A stretch of DNA of 64,000 nt from Lentisphaera araneosa HTCC2155 (GTDB taxonomy: Bacteria > Verrucomicrobiota > Lentisphaeria > Lentisphaerales > Lentisphaeraceae): NCBI RefSeq assembly GCF_000170755.1, contig NZ_ABCK01000023.1, forward strand, positions 1 through 64,000. Reading direction: 5' to 3'. The notes below the pieces were generated by a model. It ran no database searches and was not told the origin of the DNA. It saw only the letters and a list, made by a program, of their open reading frames with translations. The position numbers were made by a program, and so were the translations under genes. Shown piece after piece: positions 51,379 to 63,745 of the stretch; the stretch's first letter is position 1, and every line of letters starts with the position of its first letter.

Positions 51379-51759
51379 TTAATCGTAGACCTCATGGCAC
51401 TTATCACAGGACCTTTTGACGAAGGTCCATTTATCGAGTCGTTCTTCTAGGCTCATTTTTGGGAGATTGGCTACGAATTGATCAATAGCCTCAGCCACAC
51501 GTTTCGCTTCATCTTGAAAGAGTGTGTCTGGGTGATTGAGAGCGATTAAATCATGGCTCTCTTTTTGTAGAATATGTAGTTGATCTAACCAGTCTGATTT
51601 TTGTGGGTGTTTGGCCTTTTGCATACGGTTAAGCAACCAAGTAGGCTCATCCATGTTTTCCATGATTTCATCAATTTGGACAGACTTATAGTGATAGTTA
51701 GGTTCTGAGCTCGTACAGCTGAACAATAGGGTGCTTAGGAGTAGGATATTTTTTTTCAT
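51379..51759 (-). CDS. Lipoprotein class II cytochrome c (cytochrome c'-like)
   Basis: The 126-residue protein has a lipobox (LLFSC, Cys15) and a helical body. The heme motif C118-D-K-C-H122 lies only four residues from the C-terminus, the arrangement of class II cytochromes such as c' and c-556 (four-helix bundle, His122 as ligand). It is the last gene of the efflux operon and its start overlaps the TolC stop by 1 bp. Linking a heme lipoprotein to an efflux system is unusual; sensing or redox protection is inference. Confidence 0.75.
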   Translation of the reverse strand: MKKNILLLSTLLFSCTSSEPNYHYKSVQIDEIMENMDEPTWLLNRMQKAKHPQKSDWLDQLHILQKESHDLIALNHPDTLFQDEAKRVAEAIDQFVANLPKMSLEERLDKWTFVKRSCDKCHEVYD

Positions 51760-53033
51760 TATTGCTTTAAATATAATAAGTTTTCACGAAGAACTTGCAT
51801 CTGATAAATGATCGAAAGCAAGCGGTAGCGGGATTCAACTAACTGTAGATTAACATCGCTAACTTGCAAGAGGGTTAAGAGGCCAGCGCGGTATTGTTCG
51901 CGGGCAATTGTGTAGTTTTCTTCGGCAAATTCTAAAGCTTTTTTTTCGTTATAGATTTGTTCTGCAAGGCTTTCCCATTGGCTTTCGAGTTGGAGGTAGA
52001 TGCGTGTGCGTTCTCTAATCTCTGCTTTGACCGAGAAATCATTGGCAAGAATGTTTTTTGACTCAAATAATTGACGTGAGCCGCGTTGTTTGCCATCTAA
52101 GATAGTCCAGTTTAATGTAACTCCCACGAGCCAGCCATCTTCGAGATCATCAGTTTCAGGCCCTGTGACACCAGCACTCGCTAAACCGTAGAGTTCAGGT
52201 GCATATTCAGATTTGACTTGTTCAATCTTGGTTCGTGACACATTTGAGTCCGCTTCCAGGATGGCAATTTCCAAACTCTTATCGAGCATGGTTTTGACTT
52301 GAACTAAAAGCTTTTCTACATTTTTTGGAGGTACTAAAGTTTCTAATGATTTAATTTTTGCGGTGACTTCGCCAATCGAGGAGGCGAAAGCAAACATACT
52401 TTCGTTGAGTCGAGATTGTTGTGCACGCGTTGTGTTTAAGGATTGCATCTTAGTCACTTTTGTTTGCAAGACATCGACACGACTTAAGGTACCGACTTCA
52501 AATAAACTCTCGGTATCTTGCTCTTCTTCTTCACTGAGTTTTAAACGTTCTTTGGCCACTTCTAAGCCAGCTTGTTCAAAGATGTAGCTCCAGTAATCGA
52601 GTCGAGCCTTAAAGCTGAGGTCACGAATCATCATGGCATTTTGTAAACGGCTCAATTTAACTTCGGCTAAGCCTTCTTCTAAGGCCCATTTTTTACGGCC
52701 AAAACCATAGAGGTATTGACTGATTTTCAGAGAACTACTTAGGCGTTCATCCTCATCATTGTCATAGCCAAAGGCTAGAGGTTCACTACTCTCAAAAAGG
52801 TTTTCGTATCCTGCAGTTACATCGCCTTGAGTTTTAAAACGGGCAATGCGAAGATCTTTATTAACTTCAGTTTGTTGGATGCGAATTTCGCTATTGCGAA
52901 TTTCGCTTAGGTTCTTGATGACAAGTGAACGAATGTCATCGAGTTTAATTTCGAGTGCTTTGGCTACTTCGCTATCTTGAGCCTGTACAGCCATAAGCGT
53001 GAAAAGGCATAATATGGTGAGATGTTTTTTCAT
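51759..53033 (-). CDS. TolC-family outer membrane efflux protein
   Basis: The 424-residue protein has a signal peptide (ILCLFTLMAVQA) and the two OEP repeats of long helices (about 25-215 and 225-424), with LKISQYLYGFGRKKWALEEG, ESLFEVGTLSRVDVLQTKV, VGVTLNWTILDGKQRGSRQL and REQYRAGLLTLLQVSDVNLQ. The 'F..G..s..dvLq' periodicity is typical of TolC-like channels. It overlaps the RND gene by 4 bp and supplies the outer channel of a complete tripartite pump. Confidence 0.93.
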   Translation of the reverse strand: MKKHLTILCLFTLMAVQAQDSEVAKALEIKLDDIRSLVIKNLSEIRNSEIRIQQTEVNKDLRIARFKTQGDVTAGYENLFESSEPLAFGYDNDEDERLSSSLKISQYLYGFGRKKWALEEGLAEVKLSRLQNAMMIRDLSFKARLDYWSYIFEQAGLEVAKERLKLSEEEEQDTESLFEVGTLSRVDVLQTKVTKMQSLNTTRAQQSRLNESMFAFASSIGEVTAKIKSLETLVPPKNVEKLLVQVKTMLDKSLEIAILEADSNVSRTKIEQVKSEYAPELYGLASAGVTGPETDDLEDGWLVGVTLNWTILDGKQRGSRQLFESKNILANDFSVKAEIRERTRIYLQLESQWESLAEQIYNEKKALEFAEENYTIAREQYRAGLLTLLQVSDVNLQLVESRYRLLSIIYQMQVLRENLLYLKQ

Positions 53034-56000
53034 CTTTCCTCCAAGGTATTGTGAAAACGTTTGAAAAACTTATTGCGTCGAAACTTCTCTAATATTTCGA
53101 AAAGTACAGGTATAATTAAAAGAGTCATGCTCGTACTCACAGTTAAGCCTGCAATAAATGCGGTGGCAAAAGGGCTCCAGGCAATACTGAAATCAGGAAT
53201 TCCAATAGCCATGGGGAGTAAACCAGCAATGGTAGTGAAGGTGGTCATCATAATAGGTCGCATACGTTGATGTCCGGCAGTCAGTAGGGCTTGCTGTAAT
53301 GGTAAGCCATCTTTGATACGTTGATTGATAAAGTTAATTAAAACAATCGCATCATTAATCACGAGTCCAGTCAAACCGACCATGGCCATGAAGCCATTAA
53401 CAGTCAAAAAGGAGCGTTCGGGACGAATGCTGCCCTCGGGGAGTAAATCTGAGCCAATGCCGAGTAAAGCCATAACAATGATAACGCCAGTAAAACTGAA
53501 GACGATATTGGACATAATGAGTAATGGTTGAAGATAACTGCGGAATTGACTAGCTAAAATTCCGTAGATGAGAATGATTGCGAGCAAAAAAGCTGATGCT
53601 AAGGAGCGGTAGCTTTTGCCAGTACTTTCGGATTCACCTCCAAAAGAAATGACTGTGCCAGGATAATTGGCTCGATTTTCTAGCCACCACTTATTGAGCC
53701 TTGAACTAACATTAATAGCGCCGATTTTGGTGTCTTCATCAAGGTTGCCGGAAATGGTCACGATGCGTTGGAAATCCCAGCGAATGAGTGAAGAAGAAAC
53801 GGTTGATGAAGTAAAATGACCGAGGTCACTAAATAAGACTCGTTTCCCATCCGCTTGATTAATAAAGGGGATGTTAAGTAAATCAACGGGATCTTGTATA
53901 TGGCTTTCGGCTAAACGTAGCTTGAGGGGAATATCTTCGTCGGAGCGCCTAAAGTCAGCTATGTAGGCACCATCTAAACTATCTGCAATAAAGCGCTGGA
54001 CATCGACTTCTGAGAGCTTTAGCCCTGCAAGCTTTTCACGATCAATTTTAAATGAAAGGATATTGGAGCGCAGTTGACGATCGTGTTTAAGATCAATGAT
54101 GCCTTTTAGACTATTGTTGGATTCCTCGTCTAAATAGGACATGATATCATCGACGGCTCTCATGATGGTTTCGTCATTATTCCCAGAGACACGAACATTT
54201 ATGGGGAGGCCTACGGGGGGACCGTCTTTAGCTGAAACAACTTCTAAATCTATACCATTTACTTCGAACTCATTTTCTAGTTCTGTGCGCGTATCGCGAA
54301 TGAAACCTGCCGCATCGGTAAATTCGCGTTCAGCTTTCGGGGGTAATTCGGCCATGATGAATCCGTACTGATTACTCATGACAGGTTTGTAATCTAAGTC
54401 AACCAACATGCCTGATTGAGCTGTAGTGCTTGAAATACTTTTTGGCCCTTTAGCCATAAGTTTTTCACTTATTTTACGCACAACTTTATCTGTTTCTTCC
54501 ATTGGAGTCCCTCCAGGCATGCGCACATAGATTTGCATGATTGATGTGTTGTCAGGAAAAAAAACAAGTTTAAGTAAAGGAGTGAAGCCAAATGCGGGCA
54601 TGATAATAATGAAGATAGCAATTAAAAAGAGGAGGCCCGAAGATAAGATACTGATGACCGGGTGGTTTAGGCACCAATTTAAGCAGGTGTGATAAAAGCG
54701 AGAGATTTTACCCAAGAGTCCTTCGCGATTCAAGAAGTCATCTAAACATTCTTCTTTATGGGTCTCGGGAGCGGAATCTCGTCCCAATAAGTTTTCTAAA
54801 TCGATGACGTGAAGGGGCAATAAGATGAGGCATTCAATAATACTGATGGCTAGGGCAGTACAAACTGCGATGGGGACAAGAGAGAAAAAGTCGCCCACGG
54901 AACCTGTCATCAAGAGTAAAGGTAGGAAGGCCGCCATAGTTGTTAATGTGGCACTTAGTACTGGCCAAAAAACTTCTGAAGTTCCATCAATTACGGCGAT
55001 TTTGATTTTTTTACCCATTTCACGATGGCGTTGAATATTTTCTATAACAACAATCGCATCATCAACCACAATACCCGAGACTAAAACAAAACCTAATAGA
55101 GTAAGCTCATTAATGGATTGGCCCGTGAGATAAAAGATAAGTAAACTGCCTAAGAAACTAAAAATAATTCCCGAAATAGTGAGGACCGCAGCTCGGCAGG
55201 CATACATAACGAAGCAAGCTAAGACGCCAATGGCAATTGCTTGGACGAGGGTTGAGCTAGAAGCATAACTAACCACGGTTGCGGAGAGCGCAATAACAGT
55301 GCCGATAGTCGTGAGTTTCTTGCTTCTTTTCGCTAAAAATATGAAGAGGAGGTACATCACGAAGATAATGGAAAGAACTAGACTTTCTGATAAGACTCCG
55401 AGGCCATCTTTAATTTTCTTAGTAGTATCGAGTGTATAGACAATTTCAAATGAATATTGGTCATAATCTTTTTTGAAAAGTTCAACAGCCTCTTTGACAT
55501 CGCTTTTAATTTTAAAGGCATTTCCTGAGCGTAGTTTGAGAACTTTACACGCGGTAGAATCGGCAGCATTGATACTATTAATTAAGTTGCCTTGAAGTTT
55601 ACGAATCCCCGATTCCTCATCAATGACTAAGTCACCAACTGTAACTTGGTTGCCATCACCATCTTGTCGAATCGTGATGCTGTATATGTCGCTTGATGAG
55701 CGATAGCGTTGGTCAATGCGGATTAGGCTTTCTCCTGCAGAACTAGTGATACTTCCTGAGGGGGGTGCTTGACCAGCAAGGCGCATTTTTGCAGCTACAT
55801 CTTGAAGTGTAATTCTATTTGCATCGAGTTTTTGAGGATCTAGGGCAATAGTATATTGTTCTTGATTATCTCCTAGGAGTAAGACTTTTTTAACTTTATC
55901 TATTTGCTCTAGTCTAAGTCTTAGGTCCTTAGCTAGCAGAACTAGCGTTCTTTTTGGTAAAGGATTCGCGTCATTTTTTGAAATTAGATTGACTTGGATG

Positions 56001-56431
56001 ACAGGTAGCCATTCATCTACATCAGCTTCTGAGAAAAAAGGAGTTAATGGTTCGCCATTTTGAACAGGGAGTCGATTTTGGATTCCCATGACGCGAAAGC
56101 GCAGCTCGTTATATAGGGCTTTGTAATCTGTGTCATCAACAAACTTTACATTTATGTTTGAACGGTCAGCTTGGGAAGTAGATTTAATATAATCGAGGTC
56201 TTCCATACCACGCAAACTGTCTTCAATCTCCTCTGTCACGAGTCTTTCGACTTCGTCAGGCGTGGCTCCTGGATACATGGTAGAGATTTGAACTTCCCCG
56301 AAGGTGAAATTAGGGAATTGCTCGACAGGCATATTGGGGAGTGCAATGGTCGCACTAAAGATGATCATCCCAACAAAGATGATGTTCAGCAAGACTCCCT
56401 GCCTCAGAAAAAATGCAATAAAATTTTTCAT
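53030..56431 (-). CDS. RND-family efflux transporter permease
   Basis: The 1133-residue protein has the RND layout: an N-terminal helix (FFLRQGVLLNIIFVGMIIFS), ALPNMPVEQFPNFTFGEVQI, a porter domain, helices 2-7 with LLGFVLVSGIVVDDAIVVIE (the VDDA Asp pair of the proton relay), a second porter domain and a matching second helix set with AMVGLTGLVINDAIVLINFI. The Lys of the AcrB relay in the second half is replaced by Ile-Asn-Asp, as in several non-AcrB subfamilies. It exports lipophilic compounds using the proton gradient, with the substrate unknown. Confidence 0.95.
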   Translation of the reverse strand: MKNFIAFFLRQGVLLNIIFVGMIIFSATIALPNMPVEQFPNFTFGEVQISTMYPGATPDEVERLVTEEIEDSLRGMEDLDYIKSTSQADRSNINVKFVDDTDYKALYNELRFRVMGIQNRLPVQNGEPLTPFFSEADVDEWLPVIQVNLISKNDANPLPKRTLVLLAKDLRLRLEQIDKVKKVLLLGDNQEQYTIALDPQKLDANRITLQDVAAKMRLAGQAPPSGSITSSAGESLIRIDQRYRSSSDIYSITIRQDGDGNQVTVGDLVIDEESGIRKLQGNLINSINAADSTACKVLKLRSGNAFKIKSDVKEAVELFKKDYDQYSFEIVYTLDTTKKIKDGLGVLSESLVLSIIFVMYLLFIFLAKRSKKLTTIGTVIALSATVVSYASSSTLVQAIAIGVLACFVMYACRAAVLTISGIIFSFLGSLLIFYLTGQSINELTLLGFVLVSGIVVDDAIVVIENIQRHREMGKKIKIAVIDGTSEVFWPVLSATLTTMAAFLPLLLMTGSVGDFFSLVPIAVCTALAISIIECLILLPLHVIDLENLLGRDSAPETHKEECLDDFLNREGLLGKISRFYHTCLNWCLNHPVISILSSGLLFLIAIFIIIMPAFGFTPLLKLVFFPDNTSIMQIYVRMPGGTPMEETDKVVRKISEKLMAKGPKSISSTTAQSGMLVDLDYKPVMSNQYGFIMAELPPKAEREFTDAAGFIRDTRTELENEFEVNGIDLEVVSAKDGPPVGLPINVRVSGNNDETIMRAVDDIMSYLDEESNNSLKGIIDLKHDRQLRSNILSFKIDREKLAGLKLSEVDVQRFIADSLDGAYIADFRRSDEDIPLKLRLAESHIQDPVDLLNIPFINQADGKRVLFSDLGHFTSSTVSSSLIRWDFQRIVTISGNLDEDTKIGAINVSSRLNKWWLENRANYPGTVISFGGESESTGKSYRSLASAFLLAIILIYGILASQFRSYLQPLLIMSNIVFSFTGVIIVMALLGIGSDLLPEGSIRPERSFLTVNGFMAMVGLTGLVINDAIVLINFINQRIKDGLPLQQALLTAGHQRMRPIMMTTFTTIAGLLPMAIGIPDFSIAWSPFATAFIAGLTVSTSMTLLIIPVLFEILEKFRRNKFFKRFHNTLEER

Positions 56432-57492
56432 TACTTTCTCTTAACTAAAATGCTTTTTTCGGGGATGTCACTTTTTTTGATAATGTAAGAGTTTTTATTT
56501 CTTCGTAATGCTTGGAAAATGATTTTGTTTCCTTTCTCATCTAAGAGCCAAGTTTGTTCGAGGCCCATGTGCACAAATTCGTTAGGTACAATGACGGCTG
56601 GGGATGGGTAGTCAACTGCTAACTCAAGTTTCACCTCTAAGCCTCCTGAGGGATCTGCAAACTGATCACCGGCCACTCTCAGTTCTACATGGCGTTTACG
56701 GCTCACGGGGTCATAGTTTCGATCACTTCGGTGGAGTTTGGCTCTTAACTGCTTTTCTTTATATTTGAGTTGTATAGGTGATTTGGTGAGTACTTCATAC
56801 TCTTCTTGGCTAATTCGAAAATCAATACTCAATTCCTGAGTGTCGACTATTTGACAAATGACTTCATTCGCATTTAGCCAACTACCTGCTTCGCTGATTT
56901 GATGGTTTAATATCCAGCGCTTAGGTCCGTAAATATAGTGGCGAGCAAGCTTTTCTTTAACAAGTTCTGAGGCAACTTCGGCCTCTGTGATTTTTTGTTT
57001 TTGTAAAGCAATATTTTGATTCACTTCAATCAAGGTGAGCTCGGATTGGTCATATTCATATGAAACTCTATCGAAGTTTGATTTGGCGATTTTCCCGTCA
57101 TCACTCAAGCGACTAATGCGGTCCATTTCGAGTTTGCGGTACTTCACATTTCTTTTTTCAAGAAGGGCTCGAGCTTCTTGAGTTTTTAGAGTTTGTTTTT
57201 GGCTTTCTAGGGCGGCGTGCGAAGCTTTGAGCTCTAACTCAACTAAACTCGTGTCCTGCTTGGCAATAAGGATTTTATCGCTTGATCCTTTAAGGGTAGA
57301 GCCTTCGGTCACTTCATAAGAGATTAATCTAGCCGCATATTCAGCTTCCACATCGATGACTTTACATGGTTGGGTGAAGCCCATAATAACTCGTGTTAAT
57401 TTTGCAGGGTGCTTATGGGGCTCCCAAGTTTTTTCATTCGCATTAATAAATAAGCACGAACAGAAGGTCAGTGCAATGAGCAAATTTTTCAT
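56431..57492 (-). CDS. RND efflux periplasmic adaptor (membrane fusion protein)
   Basis: The 353-residue protein has a signal peptide (LLIALTFCSCLFINA), half-barrels around a coiled-coil hairpin (LEKRNVKYRKLEMDRISRL, DRVSYEYDQSELTLIEV), a lipoyl-like segment (GSTLKGSSDKILIAKQDTSL) and a beta-barrel end. The order is that of HlyD/AcrA-type adaptors. Its stop overlaps the RND start by 1 bp, and its start overlaps the regulator stop by 4 bp. Confidence 0.9.
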   Translation of the reverse strand: MKNLLIALTFCSCLFINANEKTWEPHKHPAKLTRVIMGFTQPCKVIDVEAEYAARLISYEVTEGSTLKGSSDKILIAKQDTSLVELELKASHAALESQKQTLKTQEARALLEKRNVKYRKLEMDRISRLSDDGKIAKSNFDRVSYEYDQSELTLIEVNQNIALQKQKITEAEVASELVKEKLARHYIYGPKRWILNHQISEAGSWLNANEVICQIVDTQELSIDFRISQEEYEVLTKSPIQLKYKEKQLRAKLHRSDRNYDPVSRKRHVELRVAGDQFADPSGGLEVKLELAVDYPSPAVIVPNEFVHMGLEQTWLLDEKGNKIIFQALRRNKNSYIIKKSDIPEKSILVKRK

Positions 57493-58118
57493 TTGATGAA
57501 TTCCTCCAGACGGTGGGGTTCTTTGAGTATTAAATTGAGGTACATGTTGGCCATGCGTTCAGGTCGAGTGAGTAACTCGTCTTCGTTGGCCCATTGCATT
57601 TGCCAAATCAAGCCATCTATCGTTGCAACTATGAAGCACGCTAAGTCTTCAGGATTGTCAATATCACGAAAGTATCCTTGCTCTAAACCTTTTTGGTAAT
57701 CGGCGAGAGCTAAACTTTGCCAATGAGCCACTTTTAGTTGGAATTCTTGACTGACAATAGTTTTAATTTGCGGATTCGTAGCAATTAAGAGTGAGAGTTC
57801 ATAGAAGAGGCGGTTCTCTTCAACGCCTTTTTTGAAAAACTCCGAAAGCACTGTGTGGATGGTCGTGTAGATGATTTTGACAGGATTATTATTACTTTCT
57901 TCAAAGGCCTCAACCAAGCTGTCAAGGCTCGCTTCAACTGCTTGGCAATTTTCTATACAGCAATACATGAGCAACTCCTCTTTAGAGTTGAAGTATTCGT
58001 AAATAGTTCCTTTCCCGATGTTTGCGTCTTTAGCAATCTTTGAGATTGTTGTGCTCGCAAAGCCTCGGTCTTTAAAGTTTTTGCTCGCTGCTTCTAAAAT
58101 TTTTTCACGTTTATCCAT
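57489..58118 (-). CDS. TetR/AcrR-family regulator of the efflux operon
   Basis: Start at 58118 (AAGGA 5 nt upstream); an ATG two codons earlier overlaps its own Shine-Dalgarno. The 209-residue protein has the TetR helix-turn-helix ILEAASKNFKDRGFASTTIS, with KIAKDANIGKGTIYEYFNSK, and a ligand-binding helical C-terminal domain. It is the first gene of regulator-adaptor-RND-TolC-cytochrome and is preceded by a TetR-type palindrome, so it should repress its own operon until a toxic ligand binds. Confidence 0.93.
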   Translation of the reverse strand: MDKREKILEAASKNFKDRGFASTTISKIAKDANIGKGTIYEYFNSKEELLMYCCIENCQAVEASLDSLVEAFEESNNNPVKIIYTTIHTVLSEFFKKGVEENRLFYELSLLIATNPQIKTIVSQEFQLKVAHWQSLALADYQKGLEQGYFRDIDNPEDLACFIVATIDGLIWQMQWANEDELLTRPERMANMYLNLILKEPHRLEEFIK

Positions 58119-58131
58119 TATCATCCTTCTT

Positions 58132-58839: not shown

Positions 58840-59562
58840 TTATTCAGCTATGGGTTGATTCGCCTTGTCTAAAAGATCTAAAGTTTTGCCTTTGAGGTCT
58901 TCACGATAGGCTTCGTCACTGGCAAGGACCCACGCATAAGCAAGTACTTTTTTCTGGGTGTACTCCTCTTGAGTGAGGTCTTTTTTGTATTGTAATTTTG
59001 CTAACATACTATCAAGAGCATCGATTTTTAGGTGAGTGTCGATGAGGTCATCGAGTTGAAGTTTAATACCTTCACTGAGATCGTGTGCAAGTCTATCGAG
59101 ATTATCTTTATCTTTAACAAGCGATTTATTGCTGTCGAGTTCTTTTCTGACATCGCGAAACATTTGTGCAACTTCTGTGCTGATGATATCATTGACACTA
59201 TTAGTGGCGATGGCGAAGTTTTTGTCCGCTAAAGAAATAATTTCCTTTTTGAGATGAGGGATTTCTTTGTCAAGTTGATCGAATGCATTAGACATCTCAC
59301 GATTAGCTAAGTCTTCGACACCTGTGATAATGTCGTCATTGCTAGGTATTTTTTGTTCAATAATATCCATCGCCATGGTTGAAATCACTTCTGGTTGTGT
59401 AATAGCTTGAAGTTTTGATGGGACATAGAAAGCATAGATGCCGACAATGATAATTAAAATTGAGTAAACAATTTTAGTTATATTTTGAGACTTCTCTGCG
59501 GAGTTTTCGAGAGCTTCTACTTTAGAAGCAATGACTTCGAGTTGTTTTTGAATTTCGCTCAT
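58840..59562 (-). CDS. Membrane-anchored coiled-coil protein (paralogue A)
   Basis: Not recognised. The 240-residue protein has a short N-terminal heptad region (IQKQLEVIASKVEALENS), one membrane helix (ITKIVYSILIIIVGIYAFYV, about 27-46) and then long amphipathic helices rich in Asp, Glu and Lys (DNLDRLAHDLSEGIKLQLDD). Its layout matches the upstream neighbour at 59575, with which it shares an operon (AGGAG before the ATG). It has the topology of small HAMP-less scaffold proteins. Function unknown. Confidence 0.65.
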   Translation of the reverse strand: MSEIQKQLEVIASKVEALENSAEKSQNITKIVYSILIIIVGIYAFYVPSKLQAITQPEVISTMAMDIIEQKIPSNDDIITGVEDLANREMSNAFDQLDKEIPHLKKEIISLADKNFAIATNSVNDIISTEVAQMFRDVRKELDSNKSLVKDKDNLDRLAHDLSEGIKLQLDDLIDTHLKIDALDSMLAKLQYKKDLTQEEYTQKKVLAYAWVLASDEAYREDLKGKTLDLLDKANQPIAE

Positions 59563-59574
59563 GATTAATTTCTC

Positions 59575-60300
59575 CTATTGCACTGCTGGTTCAACAGCAT
59601 CTTCTGGGACGATTTGATATTTTAAGAGGTCGAGCAAGGCAGCGACAAGCTTTCTTTCGGCAAGATCCGGATCAATTTTCTCAATATTGACAACGTCCAC
59701 GCTTATGGAAGTGAGTCGATCGGCAATCGCGTCAAATTCGGGCTCGAGCTTTATAATACTGTCCGCGGAGCTCGCCATGACATTTTCTGTAATCTTGATA
59801 GCAATTGTTTCAATATTTTCTTCGAGTTCTTTGATTTCAGCTTCTGAATAAGTTTCGCCGATATTATCAAAAGCTACATTTAGGGCATTTTCTAGTAGTT
59901 TGTAAATTCTCTCCTCAGTCACCTTACGTAAGTCAGTTTCTAGAGATTTAATGTGTCCCTCAAGTTTTTCTGAGTTTTTTGCATATTCTTTTTTAACACT
60001 TTCACTCAAACTCGGTAAAAGTTCTTTTTGAGCTTTAGCTTTCAAGCCAGTGAGCCTTTGCTTAAGGAGCTCTTCGGCATCCTTTTGGAGAGTTTCTACA
60101 ATGGCTTCTTGATTGTTTTTAAGTTCATTGGCGATGTTGTTGAGTCGCATAAACAGAAGGCCAATTAGAGCGAGAATTACAATGAGAGCAATGTTTCTAA
60201 AGCCCGTTTGGCTCTTCTTAATTTGCTCAATTTTATCAATTCGATTTTGGATATTTTTTATAATTTCCAAATCTTTACTATCATCTTGCTTGTCACTCAT
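59575..60300 (-). CDS. Membrane-anchored coiled-coil protein (paralogue B)
   Basis: The 241-residue product has the same layout as its downstream neighbour: a heptad N-terminus (IIKNIQNRIDKIEQIKKSQT), a membrane helix (NIALIVILALIGLLFMRL, about 42-59) and ~180 residues of acidic helices (ELLKQRLTGLKAKAQKELLP, EEIKELEENIETIAIKI-like segments). The gene sizes differ by one codon, which points to a duplication. It is divergent from the Pol II-like gene across a 142-bp gap. Confidence 0.65.
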   Translation of the reverse strand: MSDKQDDSKDLEIIKNIQNRIDKIEQIKKSQTGFRNIALIVILALIGLLFMRLNNIANELKNNQEAIVETLQKDAEELLKQRLTGLKAKAQKELLPSLSESVKKEYAKNSEKLEGHIKSLETDLRKVTEERIYKLLENALNVAFDNIGETYSEAEIKELEENIETIAIKITENVMASSADSIIKLEPEFDAIADRLTSISVDVVNIEKIDPDLAERKLVAALLDLLKYQIVPEDAVEPAVQ

Positions 60301-60442
60301 TATTGACTCTCCTTAATCAGATGTGTTAGTGGGTGTGGATTAAGTAAAAAACAAATTATTCAGCTTGTCAAGGTTTGCGTTGTAAGATATGGGGAATGCG
60401 TCCATATTGGTGAGATTTTAATTTACAATTTGGGGTAATGAA

Positions 60443-62725
60443 TTGAGTTACGCTGCAAGTGCTTTTTTATTAACTGGTGAAACGATCGATGTCACAGCTG
60501 GTCGCATGGGTTTTCGTTATTTTGGGCGATCTCCAGAGTTAGGGCCAATCGAGATACTTATTACAGATATTCCTGGGATAGTTTTTTCTGGCGACTTAGA
60601 ATCTTCGGATGGTTTGCCAGATTATGATCAAAAATCTTCACCACTTAAAAAGGTCAATGGTGAGAATTTAAATGCTTACACATTTAAAACGCGAAATGCT
60701 CAGCATGCTTTGATGAATGCCTTTAAGGAGAAGGGCCAAGAAGCTTTTGAGACAGACATTAAACATCACGAACGTTTTTTGATGGAGCTTGGGATTCGTG
60801 GGGGCATTTGGCTTGAGGGCGATGCAAAAGTTAAAGATGGCCGCGCTGTATTTAAAAATCCACGTATAAAACCATATGAAGTTAAGACTGATTTTCGTAT
60901 TGCTTCAATCGATATCGAGAATGGCGTCAACATAGATAGCCTCTTTTCCATAGCAATACATATGAAAGGCTGTGGCCCTGAGCGTAAAAAAGTTCTTATG
61001 CTCGACGACCATAGTCACGAGATGAATGACTTTACTACTTGCTTCAATACAGAGACAGATCTACTCAATGCCTTCATGGATTATATAGCGGCAGAAGATC
61101 CAGATATTATCATTGGATGGAATGTCATTGGTTATGACTTGGCACAATTACAAAAGTACTGCGAACGCAATTACTTAGACTTCAAACTTGATCGACTGGG
61201 AAAAGAACCCGATATTTTCTCTCCTATGATGGGAGTGAGTTTTGCCTTTATGTCAGGGCGCGTCGTGATTGAAGGCATGTCAGCGATTCGAGATATGGGC
61301 TACACCTTTAAAAATAATCGTTTGGAAACTGTGGCAGTTGAACTTCTTGGGGAAGGTAAACTGATTCATGATGAAGATGATAAACTAGCAGAAATTGAAC
61401 GTCAGTTTCTCGAAGAAAAAGAAAATTTAGCGAAATATAACTTACAGGATGTTGAGTTAGTCACACGCCTTTTTGAAAAAATCGGTGTTGTGGAGTTCAT
61501 GGCAACACGTACGTGCTTGTCGGGTGTGATGTTTAGTCAATTAGAGATTAATAATGCCATACTCGAAAATCTATGGATACCTGAAATCCACAAGGGCGGC
61601 TTTGTTGCCTTGGGTGATGGCGAAAAGAAAACCTCGCGCAATGACGCCTATCGCTACCTAGCTTCTGAGGCAGGTGTCCACGACAATGTGGTGCAATTGC
61701 GAATCCCGCAAATCACAGCATGGCTTGCGAGCTTATTTGATATTGATCCTTATTCCTTGGCTCAAGCTGAGAATGGTGAAGAGTTGCCTTGGGGGGCTAA
61801 ACGTTTAAAAGACCAAGCCTTTATTGCCAAGGAGCTAAAAAAGCTTTTGACTTACCGCAGTCAGTTTAAAGACTGTGATTGGCAGTGCCGTGCAGTGAAC
61901 CACACATTAAAGCAATGTATGGAAGAAAGTTTAAAATCAGCAAATCGTTTTTTTACTCCCACCTATAAAGGGGCGATCATGCAAGCCTGTGCTTGGTTGA
62001 CTGAAGAGATCAATCAAGGCCTTCTTGCGGTCTCCGCAAAACTTGTGGCATCAAATGATACAAGCCTTTATGTGAGTGTAGAGGAGTACAGTGAGCTTGA
62101 TGTTGAGACTCATTTGAATCAGTGTATCCAGAATGCCTGCTCAGATTTGGGTTTAGAAGCAGTAGTTCCACTTTGCGAAAAGATAGCGATCTTTGAGAAG
62201 ATTCTCTTTATTAAACGCAATAATGATAACTTTCTTCGCTACGCTTATTTATGTGAAGAAGGTGAAGTGAAAATCACTGGTTTGTATAACACTGGACCTC
62301 GTTGGACTCAGCTTGCCCATTATTTCCAAGAAGAGTTGATGAAGCAGATCCTGACTGGGAAAGATTGGCAAGTTTGGATAAGAGAATTTACTGAAAGCGT
62401 GCGCGATGGTGCTCATCGTGATAAAATATCTTATTTCAGAAAAGTTAAACAGTCAGATTTACTAGAGAAAAAGGATCAGGCACAAGTTGTGGCTTTGCTA
62501 AAATACCTTGATTATTATAAACCTACGGCACCAGTCAATGTTATTTCATACATTATGACTTTGGATGATGGTCCTGTACCAAGTGTATTGAATCCTAGGA
62601 CCCCTGATATAGAGCATTATATAGAGTCTCAACTTGCGAGGGTCGCAAATCCTTATTTAGCCTTAGTGGGAAAAACTTTTGAAGAGTTATTTCATGCGGA
62701 GCAATTAAGTCTTTTCGAATTTTAG
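60443..62725 (+). CDS. Family B DNA polymerase II homologue with degenerate polymerase active site and intact exonuclease
   Basis: A TTG start with GGGG 7 nt upstream; 760 residues, close to E. coli Pol II (783). The exonuclease domain keeps Exo I (D157-I-E159), Exo II (N227..Y231-D232) and Exo III (Y332-NLQ-D336). The polymerase motifs have lost their key residues, compared with E. coli Pol II as I recall it. In motif A, DYKSLYPSI corresponds to R420-IPQITAWL, without a gap. In motif B, KxxxNxxYG corresponds to K490..E494..L497-K498 with a short deletion. In motif C, YGDTDS corresponds to A536-SNDTS541. The C-terminal thumb still aligns (WTQLAHYFQEELM), and the end is QLSLFEF (754-760), a near-ideal beta-clamp motif. 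I infer a clamp-targeted 3'-5' exonuclease or scaffold, not a polymerase. Confidence 0.85.
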   Translation: MSYAASAFLLTGETIDVTAGRMGFRYFGRSPELGPIEILITDIPGIVFSGDLESSDGLPDYDQKSSPLKKVNGENLNAYTFKTRNAQHALMNAFKEKGQEAFETDIKHHERFLMELGIRGGIWLEGDAKVKDGRAVFKNPRIKPYEVKTDFRIASIDIENGVNIDSLFSIAIHMKGCGPERKKVLMLDDHSHEMNDFTTCFNTETDLLNAFMDYIAAEDPDIIIGWNVIGYDLAQLQKYCERNYLDFKLDRLGKEPDIFSPMMGVSFAFMSGRVVIEGMSAIRDMGYTFKNNRLETVAVELLGEGKLIHDEDDKLAEIERQFLEEKENLAKYNLQDVELVTRLFEKIGVVEFMATRTCLSGVMFSQLEINNAILENLWIPEIHKGGFVALGDGEKKTSRNDAYRYLASEAGVHDNVVQLRIPQITAWLASLFDIDPYSLAQAENGEELPWGAKRLKDQAFIAKELKKLLTYRSQFKDCDWQCRAVNHTLKQCMEESLKSANRFFTPTYKGAIMQACAWLTEEINQGLLAVSAKLVASNDTSLYVSVEEYSELDVETHLNQCIQNACSDLGLEAVVPLCEKIAIFEKILFIKRNNDNFLRYAYLCEEGEVKITGLYNTGPRWTQLAHYFQEELMKQILTGKDWQVWIREFTESVRDGAHRDKISYFRKVKQSDLLEKKDQAQVVALLKYLDYYKPTAPVNVISYIMTLDDGPVPSVLNPRTPDIEHYIESQLARVANPYLALVGKTFEELFHAEQLSLFEF

Positions 62726-62797: not shown

Positions 62798-63745
62798 ATG
62801 AAAAAAGTGATTATCGTAGGCTCAGGCCCTGCGGGACACACAGCTGCTATTTATGCAGCTAGAGCAGAAATGAAGCCTCTCATGTTAGAAGGTTTTATGG
62901 CAGGCGGCGTTGCAGCTGGCGGTCAGTTGACAACTACGACTGAAGTAGAGAACTTTCCTGGCTTCCCAGAGGGCATTGATGGTCCTACTCTGATGATGAA
63001 TATGCGTGAGCAATCAGCTCGTTATGGTACAGATATTATAACTGAAACTGTTGATAAAATTGATTTTAGTTCTCGTCCATTTAAACTCGTGGCCAATGGG
63101 GTTGATTACGAAGCAGCATCTTTAATTATAGCAACTGGTGCTACGGCGAAGAGATTGAATTTGCCTGGTGAAGATACTTACTGGCAAAATGGTATTTCTG
63201 CATGCGCAGTATGCGATGGTGCCCTTCCCATTTTCCGTAACAAACCAATGGTAGTAATTGGTGGTGGCGATTCAGCTTGTGAAGAAGCCATGTTCCTTAC
63301 AAAGTTTGCTTCAAAAGTGTACTTGGTTGTTCGTCGTAACGAAATGCGTGCTTCAAAAGTGATGCAAGAGCGTACGAAAGCCAACGAGAAGATTGAGATC
63401 CTTTGGGAGACGTCTCCAGTGGAAGCTTTAGGTGACGACAAAGTTCTCACACACGTAAAAGTGAAAAGCAATGTTGATGGAACTGAAAGAGATGTTGAGG
63501 CTAATGGCCTTTTCTATGCGATTGGTCACAAGCCAAATACAGATTTCTTAAATGGGCAACTTGATCTAGATGATGCAGGTTACATCTTAACGGCACCAGG
63601 TACAGCTAAAACTTCTATTGAAGGTGTTTTTGCTTGTGGTGACGTACAGGATCACGAGTGGCGTCAAGCTATAACCGCTGCAGGTAGTGGTTGTATGGCA
63701 GCTCTCTCTGCTGAAAGATTTTTGGGTGAGCTCGGTGAAATCTAA
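62798..63745 (+). CDS. trxB: Thioredoxin-disulfide reductase
   Basis: The 315-residue flavoprotein has the FAD motif [20 protein letters not shown], the redox-active C136-A-V-C139 ([11 protein letters not shown]), the NADPH motif [16 protein letters not shown] and the C-terminal [20 protein letters not shown]. It passes electrons from NADPH to thioredoxin. AAAGGA lies 7 nt before the ATG. It follows the Pol II-like gene by 72 bp and ends in a terminator. Confidence 0.97.

Follow-up and report, generated by a model that had tools for sequence, protein, structure and literature searches.

Surveys of family B DNA polymerases have described members in which the exonuclease was lost and the polymerase kept, or in which both were disrupted (PMC7544198, PMC12926913, PMC2527604, PMC2669801). 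In the Pol II group, G1, both active sites are conserved (PMC12926913). Archaeal PolB2 and bacterial G2 lack Exo III as well as a conserved Exo I and keep one Asp of motif C (PMC7544198); later work showed that PolB2 is an extender in translesion synthesis (PMC2527604, PMC7544198, PMC8764526). The C-terminal half of Pol epsilon has both domains inactivated and is fused to an active module (PMC2669801). In another polymerase family, PolX is a clear case of a 3'-5' exonuclease that is conserved above the polymerase, and it has relatives without the polymerase region (PMC12926913). A 3'-5' exonuclease can also come from another polypeptide, as with the DnaQ subunit or with PolC, which proofreads in trans for DnaE (PMC12926913, PMC5627055). 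In the open-licence literature, no description was found of a family B member that has kept the exonuclease but lost the polymerase. The conserved clade presented here has this missing combination. One of its members is encoded at positions 60443-62725 of the window, i.e., the whole stretch of 64,000 nucleotides from Lentisphaera araneosa HTCC2155 that was analysed.

Active-site residues and surroundings of the polB-like gene

The reading frame 60443-62725 (+) is open throughout, free of stops and shifts as an earlier, sequence-only reading of this DNA had stated, and comprises 760 residues (Table 1). The closest solved structure to its product is E. coli Pol II (E 2e-60). The NCBIfam model NF004421 matches the protein over its full length (5-758, E 1e-101), with 341.6 bits, which is under the curated cut-off of 570. 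Pfam detects the exonuclease domain PF03104 and gives no match to the polymerase domain PF00136.

Residue equivalences were taken from an alignment of 43 sequences including E. coli Pol II, and the coordinates of the motifs were verified codon by codon. The exonuclease residues D156/E158, D229 and Y331/D335 of E. coli correspond to D157/E159, D232 and Y332/D336, and the DEDDy site, with its four acidic residues and Tyr, is complete. The sequence-only reading had already pointed to these residues, and to N227 as well; the latter is not diagnostic: most clade members have His or Tyr at this position, and His is seen in ordinary Pol II proteins as well (GWHVIGFDL). As had been claimed, none of the three polymerase carboxylates remains: D419 of E. 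coli corresponds to R420, D545 to N538 and D547 to T540. The loss of motif B also holds, since KIIMNAFYG of E. coli aligns to NHTLKQCME and the motif is unrecognisable. Intact DxxSLYPS, KxxxNxxYG or YGDTDS motifs are not present elsewhere in the protein. The QLSLFEF tail is found where it had been placed and is indeed close to the clamp consensus. Judged from its sequence, the protein is a homologue of Pol II (family B, G1) and not a member in the enzymatic sense, as motifs A, B and C are gone.

Table 1. Coordinates of the features in and around the polB-like gene, given as positions of the window.
Feature	Position	Strand	Remarks
polB-like gene, Pol II homologue with dead polymerase and intact exonuclease residues	60443..62725	+	760 aa; TTG start, same start in both congeners
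Family B exonuclease domain, residues 101-279	60743..61279	+	PF03104, E 3.4e-15; matched in 10/10 clade members
Exo I, D157 and E159 (SIDIE)	60911..60919	+	Alignment; invariant in 10/10
Exo II, N227...D232 (GWNVIGYDL)	61121..61138	+	Alignment; D232 invariant, N227 variable (N/H/Y)
Exo III, Y332 and D336 (YNLQD)	61436..61450	+	Alignment; invariant in 10/10
Degenerate motif A, residues 415-431, NVVQLRIPQITAWLASL	61685..61735	+	Alignment; R420 (61700-61702) at the position of the catalytic Asp
Degenerate motif B, residues 482-496, CRAVNHTLKQCMEES	61886..61930	+	Alignment; Lys, Asn, Tyr and Gly of the motif gone
Degenerate motif C, ASNDTS replacing YGDTDS	62048..62065	+	N538 (62054-62056) and T540 (62060-62062) at both Asp positions
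Thumb-like region, about residues 600-742	62240..62668	+	Best-kept part of the polymerase half
C-terminal clamp-binding-like motif QLSLFEF	62702..62722	+	Q[LMI]xLF in 10/10 clade members
Upstream block, promoter-like (TTGTCA ... TAAGAT)	60342..60388	+	Near-identical in three Lentisphaera species; read by eye
Thioredoxin-reductase-like gene	62798..63745	+	Downstream neighbour in 5/6 Lentisphaeraceae genomes; not part of the mechanism

The structural comparison with E. coli Pol II that had been suggested gives a full-length Pol II fold in the AlphaFold2 model (pLDDT 88.6). In a Foldseek search with this model, E. coli Pol II-DNA complexes rank first with TM 0.79-0.80, the best being the ternary complex (0.79). 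The model of the exonuclease-dead second Pol II of the genome, described below, is nearer to E. coli Pol II (TM 0.91); the predicted fold of either protein is no proof of activity.

The upstream block looks like a sigma-70-type promoter, a function which it may have. In two genomes (G004, G005), a Fur-family gene sits between the polymerase-dead gene and the thioredoxin reductase gene (loci: window 62798-63745; L040:1822-2247), and a link of this neighbourhood to oxidative stress is possible. There is no conserved repair operon, and DNA-repair genes are absent among the conserved neighbours of the polymerase-dead gene. On the other side, 58840-60300 (-) encodes a pair of neighbouring proteins, both around 240 aa long and both showing charged helical stretches and one apparent membrane segment. 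This pair adjoins the polymerase-dead gene across the genus, and no convincing Pfam family was found for it. A complete RND efflux operon, consisting of an outer membrane protein, an AcrB-type pump, an HlyD-type adaptor and a TetR regulator, is located at 51759-58124 (-).

Descent and selection

Orthologues that show this pattern of kept and lost residues are present in all six Lentisphaeraceae genomes (G000-G005, of which G000 is the source genome) and in four Acanthopleuribacterales genomes. The group of Acanthopleuribacter pedis belongs to the Acidobacteriota, a different phylum from that of the Lentisphaeraceae. A tree had been suggested to see whether all Lentisphaerota share the losses: these are common to one clade, but the group reaches beyond the Lentisphaerota. 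D157, E159, D232, Y332 and D336 are invariant in the ten homologues from two phyla, and each of the ten proteins has Q[LMI]xLF at its end, so that the pattern goes beyond chance. In a full-length tree, the ten polymerase-dead proteins form one clade with an SH-aLRT of 100. They still do so in a tree of the exonuclease part alone (support 96/91), which is independent of the decayed half. On the trees the clade is placed inside the diversity of Pol II, with the Pol II proteins of Ignavibacteria and Calditrichia as nearest ordinary relatives. The same query also detected about 75 other Pol II loci, in Ignavibacteria, Calditrichia, Spirochaetes, Bacteriovoracales, Desulfobacterota and other groups; all of those with a complete sequence have retained motifs A and C. 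Vertical descent of the gene from within the Lentisphaeria Pol II lineage was rejected (AU p 4e-4, with long branches involved). So was a viral origin, for which no close viral copy was found and only three weak matches with 23-26% identity.

All ten clade members differ from 27 ordinary Pol II proteins at sixteen positions that are near-invariant in the latter, including Tyr and Gly of motif B as well as Tyr-Gly of motif C; this pattern fits a putative single early loss. Loss of the polymerase carboxylates followed in the Lentisphaeraceae: the Asp of motif A is absent in six out of six, and in the genus Lentisphaera both Asp residues of motif C are absent too. For this family, the polymerase-dead status as read from the motifs is firm. 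The Acanthopleuribacterales members retain the Asp of motif A and one or two acidic residues of motif C, two of the four even both motif C Asp residues (FADRDL). At their loci (L061:6001-8295 (+), L157:1501-3789 (+), L159:1486-3798 (+) and L160:1489-3768 (+)), motif B is lost and SLYPS is degraded, and by these motifs their polymerase-dead status is probable, not certain. The Pfam exonuclease domain is matched in ten and the polymerase domain in two of the ten clade members. The protein of A. pedis lies above the NCBI cut-off for 'DNA polymerase II', which is an annotation trap, as it may not synthesise DNA.

Because of the saturation of pairwise dS within the genus, the analysis relied solely on codon-model omega and on amino-acid rates, and the omega values are rough. 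The exonuclease part of the 60443-62725 gene has an omega of 0.011, the polymerase part one of 0.026 and the palm one of 0.036; the adjoining thioredoxin reductase gene has a value of 0.023. The comparison by domain that had been proposed thus gives the lower value for the exonuclease part. Rough as the values are, neutrality is excluded: the rejection of omega = 1 amounts to 158-337 log units in these three parts of the gene. The relaxed selection by which a pseudogene would have been recognised is not seen, and purifying selection extends over the whole gene.

Amino-acid rates differ between the two halves in the same direction. The ratio of within-clade branch lengths, polymerase to exonuclease part, is 2.41 for the polymerase-dead clade as a whole and 2.14-2.88 in its subclades, compared to 0.70, 0.83 and 0.84 in three ordinary Pol II clades. 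In a comparison of three Lentisphaera species, 39 out of 270 exonuclease sites are variable, versus 106 out of 364 polymerase sites (p = 1.5e-5). Retention of residues that are near-invariant in ordinary Pol II is highest in the exonuclease domain, at 86% for the Lentisphaeraceae and 97% for the Acanthopleuribacterales; the thumb follows with 60% and 76%, and palm and fingers with 15-33% and 34-45%, respectively. Retention of 60%, against 15-33% in palm and fingers, makes the thumb the best-kept part of the dead half. In family B polymerases, the thumb grips duplex DNA. Altogether, the shared clade, the omega values and the predicted fold support the view of the sequence-only reading that synthesis was lost while selection preserved the exonuclease and the clamp motif; the functions that it proposed are candidate roles.

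The second Pol II of the genome

The search for a second polB, also suggested earlier, yielded a gene in the same genome at G000:C7:199518-201779 (-), which equals L032:5519-7780 (-). It encodes 753 aa and is the sole PF00136 polymerase of the source genome. Its polymerase motifs are intact (DFKSLYPSI, KILMNSFFG and YGDTDS) but its exonuclease is dead: Asp is changed to Ile in Exo I and to Val in Exo II, and Exo III is wholly lost. Orthologues with the same kind of loss are found in G001, G002, G004 and G005, and both genes occur together in five of the six Lentisphaeraceae genomes examined. In this partner family Pfam detects the polymerase domain only, the exonuclease domain remaining undetected. 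The branch-length ratio is 0.48-0.50, and the direction of the variable sites is reversed, with 110/230 in the exonuclease and 123/401 in the polymerase part (p 2.5e-5). The clamp motif is present in the polymerase-dead protein as well as in the partner. Motif B of the partner reads NSFFG, where nearly all ordinary Pol II proteins have NSFYG; this change of Tyr to Phe is seen in all five Lentisphaeraceae copies.

The partner is a member of a Pol II lineage of the class that also includes the proteins of G018, G060 and G064, which keep both sites. In G024, from another family of the class, a related exonuclease-dead, polymerase-intact Pol II (L043:4197-6455 (+)) occurs without the polymerase-dead gene. 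A recent duplication inside the Lentisphaeraceae was rejected, as a sister relationship of the two families does not hold (AU p 2e-59). The reciprocal losses are therefore two histories that meet in one lineage and not a split gene, and phylogenetically the two Pol II families are old, separate lineages. The two genes are unlinked, and a search upstream of both for a shared SOS-type operator gave no common palindrome or shared motif.

In five genomes (G003, G388, G455, G457 and G458), no other PF00136 polymerase is found beside the polymerase-dead gene. PF00136 has no match at all in G003 and three Acanthopleuribacterales genomes, and in G458 the single match is the polymerase-dead gene itself. 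Since G457 consists of one contig of 11.8 Mb, absence of the partner there is unlikely to be an assembly gap. Without another recognisable family B polymerase in these five genomes, the polymerase-dead protein must also work without a Pol II partner. DnaQ-like exonucleases, of which each of the 12 genomes has two to six, are uninformative as a clue. Much of the class has a divergent further family B polymerase (L051, L054, L055, L056, L057, L143) of about 730-800 aa, with EMDTDG or EIDTDG as motif C and apparently both sites intact.

Possible functions and known systems

Based on the catalytic residues kept and lost, the common descent and the purifying selection seen in the sequences, and on the predicted fold, we infer that the product of the 60443-62725 gene is a Pol II that has become a dedicated, clamp-tethered 3'-5' exonuclease, with the old polymerase half as DNA grip, at a probability of about 0.62. 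The sliding clamp, binding to which is read from the C-terminal motif, would hold the protein at primer ends. The old palm, fingers and above all thumb would grip the duplex DNA and so bring 3' ends that are frayed or mismatched to the exonuclease site. The protein would remove 3' nucleotides without extension, after which another polymerase would resume synthesis. Because five genomes are without another recognisable family B polymerase, it would have to be able to work either on its own or for polymerases of other families via the clamp. One natural client in Lentisphaera would be the exonuclease-dead Pol II of the same genome. Against the dedicated exonuclease, it can be argued that an intact catalytic set is in itself no proof of nuclease activity, that with several DnaQ-like exonucleases in these genomes the need for another is not obvious, that the conserved neighbours include no gene for DNA repair, and that loss of synthesis is less certain in the Acanthopleuribacterales, where acidic residues of motifs A and C are kept.

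Somewhat below even odds stands the idea of two unrelated specialisations, which is compatible with a dedicated exonuclease encoded at 60443-62725. The exonuclease-dead protein would be a translesion polymerase for which the lack of proofreading is an advantage, and the polymerase-dead one an end-trimming repair nuclease, the two meeting by coincidence. Translesion polymerases such as PolB2 commonly lose the exonuclease (PMC12926913), and the two families have separate origins and distributions that overlap only in the Lentisphaeraceae. However, coincidence leaves the retention of both genes in 5/6 genomes of that family unexplained.

A narrower version of the dedicated exonuclease, not exclusive of it, is a two-protein polymerase in which the polymerase-dead protein edits in trans for the G000:C7 Pol II, either as a heterodimer or by exchange of the primer end on the clamp. 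We consider it rather unlikely. The co-occurrence in 5/6 Lentisphaeraceae genomes, the reciprocal loss of polymerase and exonuclease motifs, the mirrored rate ratios (2.1-2.9 versus 0.48-0.50), the complementary Pfam pattern (exonuclease 10/10 and polymerase 2/10 versus polymerase only) and the clamp motif in both proteins agree with it. Yet the pairing is not obligatory, five genomes having the polymerase-dead gene only and G024 the exonuclease-dead one only; the losses come from separate, old lineages, the genes are unlinked without a shared upstream motif, and the co-occurrence amounts to one lineage. Judging by the motifs, the one other Pol II of Lentisphaera appears to lack proofreading, and trans editing in this genus is possible as a natural extension of the dedicated exonuclease. 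The fuller proposal, that the reciprocal pair forms one proofreading system in Lentisphaera through a shared clamp or a heterodimer while the polymerase-dead protein also serves polymerases of other families in Acanthopleuribacterales, seems to us a shade more doubtful than the two-protein polymerase.

Improbable is a structural or regulatory pseudo-enzyme, similar to PolB2 as first proposed or to the C-terminal half of Pol epsilon, i.e., a scaffold whose nuclease is absent or incidental. The whole fold is kept and the dead half, with an omega of 0.026, is under purifying selection too. The sequence-only reading had named these two as parallels; the polymerase is indeed inactivated in them, but the parallel is weak, as the exonuclease motifs are disrupted there as well (PMC2527604, PMC2669801), whereas here the catalytic exonuclease residues are the best conserved. 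A decaying pseudogene or an assembly error is refuted, in spite of the fast evolution of the polymerase half, by stop-free frames in ten genomes, by their grouping in one clade, and by omega values well under 1 for either half, where the rejection of omega = 1 exceeds 150 log units.

The reciprocal pattern within one genome, with a second Pol II in which the polymerase is intact and the exonuclease dead, is new here. As the genus is culturable and the two functions are separated there in a natural pair, a long-standing question becomes testable, namely whether proofreading and synthesis must share one polypeptide.

Compared to the known systems, the protein resembles E. coli Pol II in full-length homology, domain order, DEDDy motifs and C-terminal clamp motif, and has it as best structural match; G1 keeps both sites (PMC12926913), whereas in Lentisphaeraceae all polymerase catalytic motifs are lost. 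With PolB2 and G2 it shares the family B fold with a disrupted motif C, but it keeps Exo I and Exo III, has lost both Asp residues of motif C, and has the exonuclease as its conserved half. Like the C-terminal half of Pol epsilon, it is a polymerase-dead family B module beside an active one, although it stands as a protein of its own and its exonuclease is intact. PolX and PolX-like proteins also have an exonuclease site that is more conserved than the polymerase site; they belong to another polymerase family and use another nuclease, the PHP domain. Lastly, DnaQ and PolC acting for DnaE likewise supply a 3'-5' exonuclease in a separate polypeptide, which in those cases is a small DEDDh protein or an active polymerase and here a former polymerase of 760 aa with a DEDDy-type site.
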